From positions 1-42,177 of the forward strand of contig JAJRTS010000015.1 in the NCBI GenBank assembly GCA_024278175.1: a stretch of DNA of 42,177 nt. The letters run 5' to 3'. Source of the stretch: Gemmatimonadales bacterium. Its GTDB lineage: Bacteria > Gemmatimonadota > Glassbacteria > GWA2-58-10. The translations under genes and the position numbers were made by a program. The stretch's first letter is position 1. Each line of letters starts with the position of its first letter. The notes below the pieces were generated by a model that saw nothing but the letters and a program-made list of their open reading frames with translations, was not told the DNA's origin and searched no databases. Below, piece by piece: positions 16,222-23,374 of this stretch.

Positions 16222-17631
16222 CTACCCCAGTCGCCTGCCGTAACCGGTAATCACAGCCACGCCCATCACCACAAACAGCGCCATGCTGTAGAATACGTAG
16301 GGCGCCATCTCCGCCCAACCCAGCACCGGCACGAACGGGAACGCGACGGCCAGTTCGCGATGGATCGCCGTGGCGGCCACAATCACGGCGGCATAGGGCA
16401 GCATGAACGGAAAACTGCAACTGAGCGTATCCAGCAGGTTGGCCACCCGGTAGGGGTGAATCTTGTGCGGGCGGCCCAGTCTGGCGGCCAGCGGCCCCAC
16501 TGCCACCATCGCTATTGTGTTCACCGGCACGAACAGATTCGCCAGCGAGATAAGCACCGCTATCGCAATCTCCGTTCCGCGCGCGGTGCGGGCTATTCCG
16601 TTCTGAAGGGTCCGCAAAACCCGGTCGAGAAACCCACCGGCCTCGGTCAGTCCGTTGGCTGTAACCAGCAGAAGAGTCAGCACGGAGACCGGCAACATCG
16701 CCATCGCTCCTTTTACCGCGCTGCCGGCCACCGAACCCTCGGCCGTGATATGGAACACCTGCTCCAGCGAAAACACGCCGAACAGCGGTCCCACGATCAG
16801 CGCGGCGACAATCCCGATATTCAGCGCGACCAGAAAGTGGAACCCGCTGACCGCGAACACGAATACCAGCGCGGCGGGGATCAACATCGGCAGGGCCGAC
16901 GGGTCGGCTATTTCGGCCAGCAGTTTGGTTGCGCGGGCGCTATCGGCGGCGGACTGCTCTCCCGCACCGAACGCGAATAGCGCTACGGCGGCCACCACAC
17001 CGGCCAGCAGCGAGTATTTCAGCCGTGAGCGCACCACTCCGCCCACATCGGTTTCCTGGGTGGCGGCGCTTACAATGGTCGTATCGCTCACCGGGGCGAG
17101 GTTATCTCCGAACGCCGCCCCACTGAGAATCGCGCCCATCAGCGCGCCGGGGTGCGCCCCCAGCACGATCCCGGCCGGGTACATCACCGCGGTAAAACCA
17201 ACCACCGTGCCCAGCCCCGTGCCCACGGTAACCGCGAACAGCGAAGCCGAGACGAACACCGCCAGGGTGAACGCCGCGCCCGAGAGACCCAGCTTCCAGC
17301 CCAGCCAGATCATCGACTCCACCAGCCCGCTGTCGGCCAGAATAGCGCTGAACACTCCGGCCCAGATCTAGCAAACCACCGCCACGGTGGCTATCCGGTT
17401 GGCCATCAGGCTGAATATCCGCTCGCTGTAGGCCGCCGGGTCGCGCGCGAACAGCATCCCCAGGGCAATCCCGGCCATCGCGGCGATAATCATTCCCTCT
17501 TCCACAATCGCGCCGCGAACCACCAGATACATGGTCCAGCCCAGAAACACCGCCAGCGGGACCACGCTCATCAGCGGTCCGCCCCTGAATTCAAGTCGCC
17601 CGCTTACGCCGTTATTCCCGCTCAAAAGCAC
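16222..17631 (-). pseudogene. nhaC: NhaC-family Na+/H+ antiporter with in-frame amber stop
   Basis: The two open parts, 17631-17368 (87 residues) and 17367-16222, are in the same frame and separated only by TAG at 17368-17370. Together they make about 465 residues of an NhaC-type Na+/H+ antiporter: hydrophobic helices from the N-terminus (SVVPLAVFLGWTMYLVV), the conserved GAAFGDNLAPVSDTTIVSAA region, and LLLVTANGLTEAGG plus NLFVPVNTIAMVAVG in the second half. The stop falls after VAVVC and before IWAGVFSAIL, inside a helix, so neither fragment should work alone. CAG (Gln) or TGG (Trp) could become TAG by one change. The start is GTG at 17631 or ATG at 17571; the upstream region has been replaced by the AT-rich SIR2 gene. 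A sequencing error or readthrough remains possible. Confidence 0.82.
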
Positions 17632-17647
17632 CTCGCCGGCCTGGGTT

Positions 17648-17664
17648 GAACAGTGTAAGTCAAT
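17648..17664 (+). repeat. 17-bp sequence shared with 8419-8435
   Basis: GAACAGTGTAAGTCAAT, identical to 8419-8435, lies at the composition boundary between the GC-rich nhaC remnant and the AT-rich SIR2 gene and contains the SIR2 stop codon (TGA on the minus strand, 17660-17662). It marks one edge of the apparently inserted segment. Confidence 0.45.
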
Positions 17665-18862
17665 CTTTTTTTCTTACCAACTCTCTTTTTATTTCTTCCC
17701 ACTTAACTGCTTCTATCTTTTTCTCAATAATCGTAATATTGGGGTTGTCCTCAAATGTACCCAATATACTTTGCGCAGCTGGTCTTGCGTTAACGATTAA
17801 TTCTTGGGGTGACGGATGAACAACCAAGAGTTGGTTACTCACTGACTGAATAAACCAATCAATAATTCTGTTATTAATTACTTTATCATTAAAACTATAT
17901 CCACTAACAACAAGAGCACCACATTCCTTTAGTTTCTTAGCCATAAGACACTGCATATCAAAAAATATGCCCGAGTTATATTTGAATGCTTTGTTTAGAG
18001 TTCCAACAAGCAGTAATGGCAATGCAGAACTACAATTTAATCTTTGTCCCTTACGTTTTTGATGATAAGGACCACCCTTCAGTGGGCTACCGACACAATA
18101 GATTTTTCTACCTTTTTCAATATACCAATAATCATACCAACCTAATGATCCATGAAGCTTAATAATTTTTGTTTTATATTTCTTTGATTTCCACAACTCT
18201 GGCTTATAATATCTCATACCCTCACGCGCATCGGCGAATCCATCTGCGTATGGTATTCCCTTATTATCGAGATAATTCGAAAGAATCAAATCATAGTTTA
18301 GAGTAAAAATATCTACAAAATCGAAGAAATCGTCTTTTATGGATTCCCCTATTATTCCTAGATACATCAAGTCCGATTTTATTCTAAACAATTCAGCACC
18401 TAATACTCCCACAATATAACTTAACGCTTCCCTGAATAAATCATGCAACTGCCATTCTTCTCTGATTTCTCCTTTTTTCCTATTTAGCAAAGGTTTTGCT
18501 TCCTTTAAAATCATGTCTATAAAAGGTTGAGCAACCGGATTCTCAAATTCTCCCATTTCGCTATCGTACGCCTGTTGAATCACACTGTATATATCCTCAT
18601 AATTTGATTCTCTTTTCTCTATTCTATAAAAATCGTCTGTGTATCTTTTAACCATAGTAATAAGTGATAATACTCTTGGCTTGTATTCATCTGGAAATAC
18701 ACCTCCATACATCTGTGGTATTTCATGGTATGTCTCGTCACTATATCGGTTAATTCCGTCTCCACTTAGTGCTCTTTCAGTAATTTTCGCAGTTGATGGC
18801 AATCCCGCAGGTATGGACGCACCTGCGCCTAACAAATATGAAAGTTTTTTCATGGTGGACAT
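17660..18862 (-). CDS. SIR2-like domain protein, AT-rich, likely acquired
   Basis: A 400-residue protein with SIR2-like (SIR2_2) features: GAGAS at 12-16 for NAD binding, FTLNYDLILSNY with N189 and D191, KLHGSLGW with H237, and a late VVSGYSFND (about 319-326) that closes the Rossmann fold. Asn and His of these motifs are the catalytic pair in bacterial NADase-type SIR2 proteins used in phage defence; family function is established, its use here is inferred. There is no signal peptide or membrane helix, and the middle (about 40-180) is a lineage-specific helical insert. One counted line of the gene is 33% G+C against 68% in the next gene, so it is foreign. It stands alone, with no HerA, Argonaute or TIR partner. 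ATG at 18862 or 18853. It ends 28 bases before the nhaC remnant. Confidence 0.85.
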   Translation of the reverse strand: MSTMKKLSYLLGAGASIPAGLPSTAKITERALSGDGINRYSDETYHEIPQMYGGVFPDEYKPRVLSLITMVKRYTDDFYRIEKRESNYEDIYSVIQQAYDSEMGEFENPVAQPFIDMILKEAKPLLNRKKGEIREEWQLHDLFREALSYIVGVLGAELFRIKSDLMYLGIIGESIKDDFFDFVDIFTLNYDLILSNYLDNKGIPYADGFADAREGMRYYKPELWKSKKYKTKIIKLHGSLGWYDYWYIEKGRKIYCVGSPLKGGPYHQKRKGQRLNCSSALPLLLVGTLNKAFKYNSGIFFDMQCLMAKKLKECGALVVSGYSFNDKVINNRIIDWFIQSVSNQLLVVHPSPQELIVNARPAAQSILGTFEDNPNITIIEKKIEAVKWEEIKRELVRKKD

Positions 18863-19034
18863 GGAACGATGCTCCGGAAACCTGTTTGTCGATACGAATG
18901 ATTGAACTTTCCCGCAATTACGCTGGTAATTAATTTAGACGGCACAGGCGAGCACGGTCAAGCACCTTCCCCCCGGCGCAACACCAGCGGCCTTTTTTGT
19001 TGACATTCTCCCCCCCCGTTCCAAGCTTGAGCAC

Positions 19035-19916
19035 ATGCGTAAGCTGATAATCATACTATCGCTGCCCGCGTTGATCCTCGCGGCCGCCACAACACTTTGT
19101 GGCCAGGCTCCCGTCCGGTTGCAACTCGGCGGCGGGGAAAACCGCGCCCCCGGCCGACTGAGTTTCAGCCGGGACGATCGCGGCAGCCTGTTTGTGCTGG
19201 ATCGCGAAAACGCCCGGCTGCTGCGTTTCGACCCCTCCTCGGGCCGGATGTTGTGGCAGATCGACGGGAGCGAGGCGGGCGAGGCGTTTATCGACCCGGC
19301 CTGGCTCAGCCGGCCCGACGGGTTCTTTGTCTACCTGACGGACCTGGGAACGCGCAGGGTGTGGCGGGTGGATTATCGCGGTGAGCTTCGCGGCGCCGTG
19401 GACCTCCGGTTCGTCGCCGACCCGAGGATGCTGGAGCTGACCGCGGGTGGGCAGATGGTCGTTTACGACCGCGCTTCGGGTCTGATCCATCTGCTGGACG
19501 ACTCCGGCCGGCCGCTGTGGAGTTTCCCGCCGGGCGAGGGACGCACCAGCGCCGAACCCGGCGTAATTTGTGTCGGGCCGCAGGGGCAACGCCTGTTCCT
19601 GCTCTGGAGCGGGCAGCCCCGGCTTACGGTTGTCAGCCTGTTCGGCCACGGCAGCAGACGGGTCGATGTGGACGGGGCTCTGCCCGCTAAGCTGCTGGCC
19701 GCGGCAGCCGCGGGCAGCAGTGAACTGCCCGTGCTCGCCCTGATCGGCTCCGATGGCGCGCTCTACCGGCTGGACGCCTGGAGCGGCGCAGTGGAAAAAC
19801 TGGCCGTCGGGATTGAACATCCCCTTGATATCCGTGGCGACCTGAGCGGGTTCAGCGTACTGAGCGGCAAGGGACCGTCCATGCACCGGATCGAGCTGGA
19901 AGGCTGGGCGCGATGA
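19035..19916 (+). CDS. secreted NHL-like beta-propeller protein
   Basis: A 293-residue protein with a Sec signal (KLIIILSLPALILAAATTLCG) followed by repeating blade-like units: SRDDRGSLFVLDRENARLLRF, VYLTDLGTRRVWRVDYRG, VVYDRASGLIHLLDDSGR and SDGALYRLDAWSGAVEKL. These are typical of NHL/PQQ-like propellers, which bind ligands or partner proteins and seldom act as enzymes. Its ATGA stop-start overlap with the following 1153-residue barrel gene points to translational coupling and a shared task at the outer membrane. No specific family can be named. The 172 bases upstream hold its promoter region, with no convincing -35/-10 pair. Confidence 0.75.
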   Translation: MRKLIIILSLPALILAAATTLCGQAPVRLQLGGGENRAPGRLSFSRDDRGSLFVLDRENARLLRFDPSSGRMLWQIDGSEAGEAFIDPAWLSRPDGFFVYLTDLGTRRVWRVDYRGELRGAVDLRFVADPRMLELTAGGQMVVYDRASGLIHLLDDSGRPLWSFPPGEGRTSAEPGVICVGPQGQRLFLLWSGQPRLTVVSLFGHGSRRVDVDGALPAKLLAAAAAGSSELPVLALIGSDGALYRLDAWSGAVEKLAVGIEHPLDIRGDLSGFSVLSGKGPSMHRIELEGWAR

Positions 19917-22900
19917 GCCGGGCTCGGGCGGCGCTCTGGCTTGCCACGGGCTTTATCCTGCCGGGCATCCACTTGCCCCCGGCTGTCCTTGCGGCCTCCG
20001 CGCGGACAGAGCAAGCTCTGGATACGTTGCTGATCTCCCCGCAAAGCAACGTTCTGCAACTGTCTCATCGGTTCGTGATCTCCGCCGGCCTGGAACTGCT
20101 CTGCCGGGGCCAGCAGCTGAAAGATTCCCTGTACCTGCTGGAGAATGTCCCGGGGCGGATAGTGCCGCTGGCGCCGCTGCCCTGCTGCGACACGCTCCTC
20201 GCGCGCTACCGCTACAGGCCGGAAATGGCCCTGCCCGACTCTTTCAGCCTTCGTGAATCATTCCCCCCTCCCCGGCCGGACAGTGCGGTCTCCATTGCCG
20301 ACTCAGACACGCTAACGCCTTTGCCGCTAAAAAACTTTGGTGGGAGCGACCCCCGCGAGGGCTTCCGGCTGGCGGGTTTCGACATCTCCGGCTCCAAGAG
20401 CGTCTCGGTTTCCGGCGGCGGCGGCGGCGGCGGCAGCGCACGCGGCGCCGCGCTGGACCAGAACCTGATGTTGCGGATCGGCGGCAAGCTGGGACGCGAC
20501 ACCGAAATCAGTTTCCGGCTCAACGACCAGGACTTGCCGCTCTCAACCGATGGCCGCAGCGCGGAACTCAGGGAGCTCGACGAGGTGGCTGTCAGCCTGA
20601 GCGCCCCCGGCGCGGGAGTCACGCTGGGCGACTACGATTTCAGCCTGACAGGCTACGAGTTCGCCCGGATAGAGCGCAAGCTCGATGGCGTCCAGGGGCG
20701 GCTGGAGCGCGGGCCGGTTCAGCTTGCGGCAGGCGCGGCGGTGGGCGGCGGCACTTTCCGCAGCACGAGGTTAAACGCGGTGGAGGGCCGCCAGGGACCC
20801 TACCAGCTCACCGGCCCCTCCGGCGAACCCGTGCGTGTGCTGGCAGGCACCGAGCGGGTCTGGCTCGATGGGCGGCGGCTGAGCCGTGGCGTGCGTGCGG
20901 ACTACACGATCGACTACACGCGCGGCACGATCACGTTCACCGAGCGCCACCTGATCGGAATCGAAAGCCGGATCGAGCTGGATTTCGAGTACTCCAGCTT
21001 CACGTTCCGCAAGTCGCTCTACAATGTTACCGCCGTCACGTCCGGGCGCGCAGGGCAACTGCGGGCCTATTTCGTCCGCGAGAGCGACCTGCAGGACAGC
21101 CCGCCCGGCGGCCTGTTCAGCCCCGAGGAACTGGACTGGCTGGACTCATCGAGCACTGCGCTGGACAGCGTGCTCACCCCCGGCGTGCGCTACCTGGGCG
21201 ATAACCGCGGCTCCTACCTGATGCGCTTTACCGGCTCCGGCCAGCCCTATTTCGAGTTTAGCGGGGCAGGCAACGGCGACTACATGGTCAGTTTTAACAA
21301 GGTGGGCCTGCCGCTGGGCAGCTACCGGTTCGACCCGGCCTCGGGCGGCTACCGCTGGGTGGGCGAGGGTAATGGAGAGTATCAGCCGGCCGGCGAGGTG
21401 GTTCCGCCCTCACGCGATGACCGGGCGGGGCTGGCGTTCAGCTCCAACCCGCTCCCCCACCTGAGCGTCCGGGGCGAGGGCGCGCTGCTCAAGCGTACGC
21501 TCAATCTCTACACCGGCGGCGGCGGCCCGGCGCGCTCGGCCCACAGTATCGCGGTGGCGCTCGACACTCTGCCGCTGGCGGTTTTGCCCGCCCGGCTCAG
21601 TTTGCAGGCCCGGCAGAGCGGCCTGCAACGCGGCTTTTCTTTCAGCGGACGGCGCTACCAGGCGGATTTCGAGCGCGCCTGGCATCTGCTGCCGCTGGCG
21701 GCGGGAGACGACGTGCCGGGCCTGCCGGGGGAAAACAAAGCGGAAGCCTCGGCTGCGCTCTCCCTGCCGGCGGGACTTAAAATCGAATCCGGCTGGGGAA
21801 GGATGGCCCGCACATCCGGTGAGCGCGCCAGCCGCAATACGCTGGGGCTGGCGTTCGATCCCTCGGACGTGTTATCGGCCTCGTGGAAACGGCTGGACAT
21901 CAACTCCCGGCGGCTCCCGGCAGGCGGCGCCACCAGCGCCGACACCCTGTTCCACGCTTACCGTCTGCGCGACAACGGCTCGCTGGCGCTGGATTTCGGC
22001 CGCTTCAGGCCCTCATTTGCCTTTGAGCGCGAGAAGCGGACCTCGCCGGACATGGCGTTCGGGATCACCGGCAGCCGGCACCTGGAGCTGACCCACCGGC
22101 TGGATGCGGAAATCTCGCCGAAACTGCAACTGGGCCTCTCCCTTTATGGCCGTGACACCGACGAGCAACCCACGGGACGCAGCGCATGGGAAGCCGCCAC
22201 CCGCGCCCGCTCGGGCCGGATCGAGAGCTCGTGGAACGGCCCCGGCGCGCTGCGTGTCCGCGGCCGGATGGGCTATCGAAGCCAGCAGTACCTGCGCCGG
22301 AACCTGGGGAAAACCAGCTCCACGGCCGGGCGGGTCGAGGTGTTCGGCGGGGGTTTCGACGGGCGCTGGCAGTCACACCTGATCTACGAGCTGTCCCACG
22401 GCTCCAGCCTGCGCAACCGGGTGGTTTATCTGCCGGAGCGCTACCCCGACGACGGCGCGTACCTGGAGGACGGCACTTACGTAGGACCCGAACAGGGCAC
22501 TCATCGCCGCGAGGTGCTGCCCGCCGAGGTCGATCCGCGCCAGGCCGCCAGCCTCAAATTCACCGCCCGCGAGAACCTGGACCTGACCGCCTGGGTTGAC
22601 TCGGCGCGGACCACTATCAGCCGCATGGCCGTAAGCGCCACCGCGCGGCTTGAGCGCGAGAGCACGCTGAGCGAGAAGTGGAAGCTCTACATGATGCTGC
22701 CCTCGGCCGTTAACGACGAGGCCAGCATGCTGCTGTCCCAGACCTGGATCAACGCCGACCTGACAGTGCAGTGGAAAAAACCGGCCGTGTTCAGCCGCCT
22801 GGAACTGATCTGGAACACCAGTCTCGACCGCCGGTTCGAAACCGGCAGCGAACAGTACGCCGACCGCAGGCTGCGCCTTCAACTTCGCGTGCCCATTACC

Positions 22901-23374
22901 GGGGGCGTGGAGTGGTCGCCCACGGCCGAAGCGGGCCGGCTCAGGCGCGTCCAGCTTTCAGGAGGGCGCAGCCGGGTGAGCAGCGTCACGGCGGCCAACT
23001 CGCTGGTAATAAACCTGGGCGAGCACTGGCGCGCGGGCGCTGACCTGGATCTGGGCCGCTTCAGGGTGGAGGGGGAGAGAGAGAGCTACAGCCGGTGGGG
23101 TACGGGCGGATCGCTGACCCGCTTCCTGGGCGGCACGGGACGGATCGAGGCCGGGCTGAAACTCTCCCATCTGAGCGGACCCGGCCAGCCGGGCGTGATG
23201 CTGGTGGAGGTGCTGGGCAGCGCCCGCCCCGGCACCAGCTACCGGGCCACCGCCGCGGTCAGTGTGGAGCCGGGCGAGCGGATGATGATCCATTTCCGTT
23301 ACACCGGCAGGTCCAATTACCTGCTTAACGATTTTACGCACTATGGCCGGGCGGAGATTAAGTATTACTTTTGA
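19913..23374 (+). CDS. large predicted outer-membrane beta-barrel protein
   Basis: A 1153-residue protein beginning with a signal-like segment (ALWLATGFILPGIHLPPAVLAAS). After about 130 residues comes GFDISGSKSVSVS and a seven-glycine tract, then a repeated beta-rich body. A recognisable unit is LAGTERVWLDGRRLSRG followed by DYTIDYTRGTITFT (about 305-345), a beta-sandwich type seen in large surface proteins of FCB-related lineages. The remaining 700 residues alternate polar and aromatic residues as in transmembrane strands, and the chain ends EIKYYF, with the C-terminal aromatic typical of BamA substrates. No plug, TonB box or SusC signature is seen. It is coupled to the upstream propeller gene and lies 566 bases before an Omp85 remnant. 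Function is unknown; a structural or translocation role is possible. Confidence 0.75.
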   Translation: MSRARAALWLATGFILPGIHLPPAVLAASARTEQALDTLLISPQSNVLQLSHRFVISAGLELLCRGQQLKDSLYLLENVPGRIVPLAPLPCCDTLLARYRYRPEMALPDSFSLRESFPPPRPDSAVSIADSDTLTPLPLKNFGGSDPREGFRLAGFDISGSKSVSVSGGGGGGGSARGAALDQNLMLRIGGKLGRDTEISFRLNDQDLPLSTDGRSAELRELDEVAVSLSAPGAGVTLGDYDFSLTGYEFARIERKLDGVQGRLERGPVQLAAGAAVGGGTFRSTRLNAVEGRQGPYQLTGPSGEPVRVLAGTERVWLDGRRLSRGVRADYTIDYTRGTITFTERHLIGIESRIELDFEYSSFTFRKSLYNVTAVTSGRAGQLRAYFVRESDLQDSPPGGLFSPEELDWLDSSSTALDSVLTPGVRYLGDNRGSYLMRFTGSGQPYFEFSGAGNGDYMVSFNKVGLPLGSYRFDPASGGYRWVGEGNGEYQPAGEVVPPSRDDRAGLAFSSNPLPHLSVRGEGALLKRTLNLYTGGGGPARSAHSIAVALDTLPLAVLPARLSLQARQSGLQRGFSFSGRRYQADFERAWHLLPLAAGDDVPGLPGENKAEASAALSLPAGLKIESGWGRMARTSGERASRNTLGLAFDPSDVLSASWKRLDINSRRLPAGGATSADTLFHAYRLRDNGSLALDFGRFRPSFAFEREKRTSPDMAFGITGSRHLELTHRLDAEISPKLQLGLSLYGRDTDEQPTGRSAWEAATRARSGRIESSWNGPGALRVRGRMGYRSQQYLRRNLGKTSSTAGRVEVFGGGFDGRWQSHLIYELSHGSSLRNRVVYLPERYPDDGAYLEDGTYVGPEQGTHRREVLPAEVDPRQAASLKFTARENLDLTAWVDSARTTISRMAVSATARLERESTLSEKWKLYMMLPSAVNDEASMLLSQTWINADLTVQWKKPAVFSRLELIWNTSLDRRFETGSEQYADRRLRLQLRVPITGGVEWSPTAEAGRLRRVQLSGGRSRVSSVTAANSLVINLGEHWRAGADLDLGRFRVEGERESYSRWGTGGSLTRFLGGTGRIEAGLKLSHLSGPGQPGVMLVEVLGSARPGTSYRATAAVSVEPGERMMIHFRYTGRSNYLLNDFTHYGRAEIKYYF

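Follow-up and report, generated by a model that had tools for sequence, protein, structure and literature searches.

The window analysed here is a stretch of 42,177 nucleotides that makes up one entire contig, and well away from the contig ends it carries a gene for a stand-alone sirtuin-fold protein. This gene, its key residues and its neighbours lie as follows:

17660..18862, minus strand: stand-alone SIR2_2 (sirtuin-fold) gene, 400 aa, assigned from the open reading frame (ORF), the Pfam SIR2_2 match, the AlphaFold2 model and the closest solved folds
18815..18829, minus strand: GAGAS, the GxGxS NAD-binding motif (residues 12-16), read from the sequence, with G12 and G14 invariant in the relatives' alignment A2
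18296..18298, minus strand: codon of N189, the predicted catalytic Asn (TLNYD), invariant in A2
18152..18154, minus strand: codon of H237, the predicted catalytic His (KLHGS), invariant in A2
16222..17571, minus strand: NhaC-type Na+/H+ antiporter, the downstream syntenic gene
19035..23374, plus strand: upstream syntenic pair, a PQQ-like beta-propeller gene (293 aa) and an outer-membrane-like gene (1153 aa), family-conserved

The SIR2 ORF of 400 aa is free of frameshifts and fills exactly 17660..18862 on the minus strand. Its G+C content is 35.3% (GC3 29.4%) against 58-67% (GC3 75-83%) in the neighbouring genes, those directly flanking it standing at 64-67% with a GC3 near 80%; this bears out the AT-rich SIR2 ORF that an earlier, sequence-only reading of this DNA had described. 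The protein matches Pfam SIR2_2 (PF13289) with an E value of 3.1e-10 and 40.7 bits, above the gathering cut-off of 24.5 bits, and a genome-wide search of the 4.18-Mb genome found one SIR2_2 gene, namely this one. The four motifs named in the sequence-only reading are all in place: GAGAS at residues 12-16, TLNYD at 187-191 (with N189), KLHGS at 235-239 (with H237) and GYSFND at 321-326. N189 and H237 are unchanged across the 27 relatives aligned in A2; thus the presence of the motifs in the window gene is not a matter of chance.

The flanking genes are kept together in a congener (G003) and in two other genera (G005 and G009), and in all three genomes the slot between them holds a GH1 beta-glucosidase gene, in the same orientation as the window SIR2 gene. 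A search of the whole window genome found no GH1 glucosidase anywhere. Because GH1 occupies this slot in the related genomes, between the same flanks, the window SIR2 gene is evidently a recent acquisition; this had been claimed from base composition, and the relatives, together with the loss of GH1 here, now support it on other grounds. By alignment, one coding sequence is exchanged for another, with the SIR2 ORF in the exact place of the GH1 ORF. The edges of the exchange and the leader are:

18849..18862, minus strand: 5' junction, where ATGTCCACCATGAA is aligned to the opening codons of the replaced GH1 gene (in G003, ATGTTCACGATGAA), from the blastn end at 18849 and a base-by-base alignment
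17636..17659, minus strand: 3' junction, where G003 homology resumes 24 bases past the SIR2 stop and 21 bases past the GH1 stop, from blastn
18863..18961, minus strand: leader of the replaced GH1 gene, from alignments, its putative promoter and RBS function being read from consensus only

Homology of the upstream DNA to G003 (blastn) continues past the start codon as far as base 14 in both ORFs, ending at 18849, and the SIR2 ORF starts inside the first five codons of the replaced gene. The leader contains a promoter-like TTGACC (18961-18956), an 18-base gap, TAAATT (18937-18932) and an RBS-like GGAG, and matching elements precede GH1 in G003, G005 and G009. The window SIR2 gene therefore now sits behind elements of the lost GH1 gene, namely its promoter-like leader, its GGAG site and its opening codons. 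Since codons 1-5 align with the start of that gene, the ATG at codon 4 (18853) is more likely to be the ancestral start of the SIR2 part. Separately, the NhaC-type antiporter gene directly downstream of the swapped gene has an in-frame TAG (17370-17368, minus strand) where G003, G005 and G009 have TGG (Trp); this is either a nonsense mutation or an assembly error.

G003 itself carries a SIR2 relative at another site. Its protein is 28% identical to the window protein, its gene has 33% G+C in a 63% setting, and its start overlaps the stop of a beta-helix gene. The corresponding site in the window genome is clean and empty; it has the beta-helix gene, an alcohol dehydrogenase gene and a short palindrome, but no SIR2 gene. 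The tree puts the window and G003 proteins into separate clades (split 95/94), both with members from other phyla; one genus has thus acquired a SIR2 gene on two separate occasions. The palindrome, GGGCGGACACATGNGTCCGCCCCTAC (REP-like), lies both at the G003 SIR2 insertion site and at the empty site of the window genome (L008 8825-8850, L033 2631-2656), and it was sought in the window, where it is absent. A 14-mer, AATCACCACCTTGA (L008 8762-9040), stands just past the inserted G003 SIR2 gene and again within the end of the adjacent dehydrogenase gene.

The AlphaFold2 model of the window protein has a pLDDT of 90 and a pTM of 0.89. Its closest solved folds are the SIR2 subunits of SIR2-HerA (Z 22-25 over ~300 residues, rmsd 3.0-3.8), followed by SPARSA, ThsA and KomC (Z 16-17) and the deacylase sirtuins Sirt5 and CobB (Z ~15-16). 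A sequence profile returns the same order, with the SIR2-HerA chains 8w9l, 8yhx and 8j4u on top (3.7e-25 to 1.7e-17). Structure prediction with fold comparison was the check suggested by the sequence-only reading, and it places SIR2-HerA ahead of ThsA. Rather than as an unplaced orphan, the window gene is better placed in the SIR2-HerA branch, as a stand-alone member.

The likeness to the SIR2 subunit of SIR2-HerA (Nezha, GAO_19; PDB 8sub, 8j4u, 8wld/8w9l, 8yhx) goes beyond the best fold and profile match, as the N and H catalytic motifs are at corresponding positions and the length is similar (about 360-430 aa). The catalytic residues N168 and H227 of the V. cholerae Nezha SIR2 (PMC11559045) would correspond to N189 and H237 of the window protein. 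The catalytic N133-Y134-D135 and H171 of DSR2 (PMC11263360) occupy the same motif positions as this pair. DSR1 and DSR2 are single-gene SIR2 NADases with a catalytic N-Y-D and H, as is predicted for the window protein, and they provide a model for direct sensing by one protein. However, DSR2 reaches ~1,000 aa (up to 972 residues in solved chains) and has an extended helical region at its C-terminus, whereas the 400-aa window protein has its sirtuin fold over residues 2-393 and no long C-terminal sensor region. ThsA (Thoeris), SPARSA SIR2-APAZ and KomC share the SIR2 NADase fold but are structurally less similar to the window protein, as their Z scores indicate; the protein shows no second domain, SLOG and APAZ included, and there is no ThsB, Argonaute or KomB beside the gene, whose neighbours are NhaC and the PQQ-like propeller. 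The vertebrate SIR2_2 sirtuins FAM118A/B, which according to PMC12700824 are related to antiphage sirtuins and nearest to ThsA, have the same Pfam domain SIR2_2 as the window protein.

The protein departs from its HerA-linked relatives in an insert ahead of the catalytic Asn:

18329..18757, minus strand: extended helical insert, residues 36-178, poorly conserved except for an NYED helix, a candidate regulatory or sensor part, from secondary structure, spacing and pair identity

The spacing from GxGxS to the Asn is 177 in the window protein and 168-195 in the 20 core lone members of the family, against 121 in the HerA-linked relatives L075, L076 and L078 of the same scan. In the model, five helices of at least 10 residues lie between residues 60 and 176. 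Pair identity is ~0.2 in the insert against 0.4 in the core motif regions, the NYED helix excepted; this low conservation fits a sensor role without proving one. The insert had been put at 140 residues, with a layout unlike that of known partners. It is helical as claimed, but the stretch from GxGxS to the catalytic Asn is ~170 residues; and the fold is that of the SIR2 subunits of SIR2-HerA, although the insert is indeed ~50 residues longer than in the HerA-linked relatives.

No relatives came from single-protein scans of genome contigs or viral contigs, or from tblastn searches of phage and plasmid sequences; it was an alignment of two sequences that alone opened the family, with 37 relatives in the scan and none in viral contigs. 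The G003 homologue gave two weak matches against plasmids (22-24% identity). The core full-length members occupy 20 loci, including the window and G003, from a dozen or so phyla, and within the phylum there are two full-length copies in 395 genomes. The G+C content of the SIR2 gene is lower than that of its flanks in 38/38 relatives, by up to 30 points.

HerA proteins from the genomes of two relatives were searched against the window contig and all loci. HerA stands beside SIR2 at none of the 20 core loci, the window contig included, where NhaC follows SIR2 instead; at L047, L050 and L062 the 0.7-1.3 kb covered downstream is enough for a fragment of an adjacent HerA. The test works, as the same scan recovered true SIR2-HerA pairs in three more distant relatives (L075, L076 and L078), in which HerA follows SIR2 directly and its frame opens at the SIR2 stop. 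A conserved small partner gene, sought across the core loci, was not found either. The lack of a usual defence partner, claimed for the window gene, thus extends to the whole family. Without HerA, an infection trigger would have to be sensed by the SIR2 protein itself or by something in trans.

The neighbours of the core loci are mostly unrelated housekeeping genes that differ by locus, such as purC, selA, pgm, a symporter and a glycosyltransferase (named by eye from translations), and just a SoFic-type Fic protein (L046, L057) and PPDK recur, twice each. The PPDK (pyruvate phosphate dikinase) gene lies within ~2.4 kb of SIR2 in two different phyla (L050 2869-5640, L051 4976-7711), which may be coincidence. 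The sequence-only reading had counted consistent housekeeping contexts of homologues against itself. Most neighbours are indeed of that kind, but they differ at every site, which argues for a mobile accessory gene and not a housekeeping gene. Among the PADLOC matches listed (25 of the 28 families in the tally of neighbours), defence families lie near four loci: L046 (BREX BrxC, PglX, SoFic), L057 (SoFic), L047 (IetA-like, PDC-S15) and L062 (PDC-S11). PADLOC also matched AbiU and PDC-S01 among the relatives' neighbour proteins, without placement at a locus. The majority of SIR2 loci are outside defence islands, in which the lone family again differs from SIR2-HerA. At L046 (3019-12241), SIR2 is directly upstream of the BREX genes BrxC and PglX, with the SoFic-type Fic gene at the opposite side. 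The dN/dS ratio is 0.08-0.12 in five pairs, which all belong to the Bacteroidota branch, apart from the window gene's surroundings in the tree; these Bacteroidota relatives are thus under selection and maintained.

We propose, with moderate confidence, that the window gene product, from the SIR2-HerA branch of SIR2_2 sirtuins, works on its own and without HerA as an NAD+ glycohydrolase in abortive infection. The sequence-only reading of the letters was right, and there is plausibility in its main idea of a single-gene NAD-depleting defence factor: the gene probably serves defence by abortive infection and moves as a bare ORF, with NAD depletion and anti-phage activity as its predicted effects. 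The sequences show that it travels as little beyond the ORF, partnerless and mostly outside defence islands, and that here it has taken over the GH1 slot behind the GH1 leader and first codons with its catalytic NAD-binding motifs all retained. The protein may oligomerise as its relatives do and stay silent before infection. An infection cue, received by the long helical insert or by the assembly, would then open the active site, a task that falls to HerA in paired systems; NAD+ would be cleaved, and the infected cell arrested or killed. Several lines point this way: the SIR2-HerA-like fold with invariant motifs and no HerA at the core loci; the only SIR2_2 gene of the genome, swapped in relative to three relatives with loss of GH1; the separately acquired congener copy with its clean empty site, and the low G+C throughout the family; and the dN/dS values and the defence-family matches near four loci. 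Against it stand the position of most loci outside defence islands and the finding that herA deletion abolishes Nezha immunity in V. cholerae (PMC11559045), meaning that a HerA-less SIR2 needs another activator.

That activator might act in trans, the lone-travelling gene using a resident ATPase or other activator, such as a HerA-like protein encoded elsewhere in the genome. Relatives with solved structures do work with HerA, and strong DUF87 (HerA) matches occur elsewhere in 2 of 18 relatives' genomes (G395 and G407). Most of the others have only weak and short matches, however; the sole broad DUF87 match in the window genome (C88, 4e-8) belongs to an ATPase whose C-terminal region is unrelated, and the longer insert also sets the protein apart from HerA-linked SIR2, so we regard activation in trans as unlikely. 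It is also rather improbable that the protein is a sirtuin with a non-defence role in protein deacylation, ADP-ribosyl transfer or signalling. Its mostly metabolic neighbours and the presence of deacylases within the sirtuin fold would suit such a role, but the protein is far nearer to antiphage SIR2 than to Sirt5 and CobB, its distribution in the phylum is patchy, the site is different each time, and the congener acquired its copy separately. A decaying, functionless effector orphaned from a former SIR2-HerA pair would explain the missing HerA and a slot without obvious selection. Yet 20 core loci from many phyla share the lone state and keep both intact motifs and an insert whose length is consistent and different, and relatives in the Bacteroidota branch are under strong purifying selection; we therefore consider decay very unlikely.

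Immunity depends on HerA in the SIR2-HerA systems studied so far. If the gene is a HerA-less NAD glycohydrolase of abortive infection, as we prefer, a widespread branch with the same catalytic fold and never beside HerA would show the same NADase run as a single gene, and what stands in for HerA becomes a question open to direct test. The gene is also a clear example of probable defence function encoded away from defence islands, of the kind that guilt-by-association surveys tend to miss, and moving as a unit that barely exceeds its ORF.

A more far-reaching proposal, which is possible but doubtful, is that a HerA-free SIR2 effector clade senses phage by itself through the enlarged insert and spreads as a bare, promoterless ORF, sometimes as an integron cassette and sometimes by taking the place of a host coding sequence, whose promoter and start it then uses. 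In four Bacteroidota-type loci (L064, L065, L072 and L081), DNA similarity of 76-84% is limited to the ORF: it begins no more than 26 bases ahead of the ORF and does not extend past the stop, and the neighbouring genes are clearly unshared; selective constraint alone could sharpen these edges. The array in which L064 lies is cassette-like, with GTTAGCCACC / GGTGGCTAAC as inverted ends, and attC-like sites flank L048, which belongs to the same clade as the window protein; the cassette reading of both comes from inspection by eye plus folding only (z-scores +0.1 to -3.5). A generic attC scan of 30 loci gave scores no higher than control genes, and Rfam had no match in the window or the cassette-bearing loci. 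Defence genes in integron cassettes have already been reported (Kieffer et al. and Darracq et al., as cited in PMC13092281). For the window copy the cassette route was rejected, as no attC-like hairpin lies beside the gene and in its family no integrase scored above the integron cut-off. Integron-cassette transfer is thus a lead for the SIR2 family, as judged from sequence, and not for the window gene. The L064 array also holds a cassette-like ORF (2636-2940) whose N-terminus, by eye only, resembles the Cas9 start (MGRTLGLDLGTNSIGWAIIEN) and is followed by a hydrophobic stretch.
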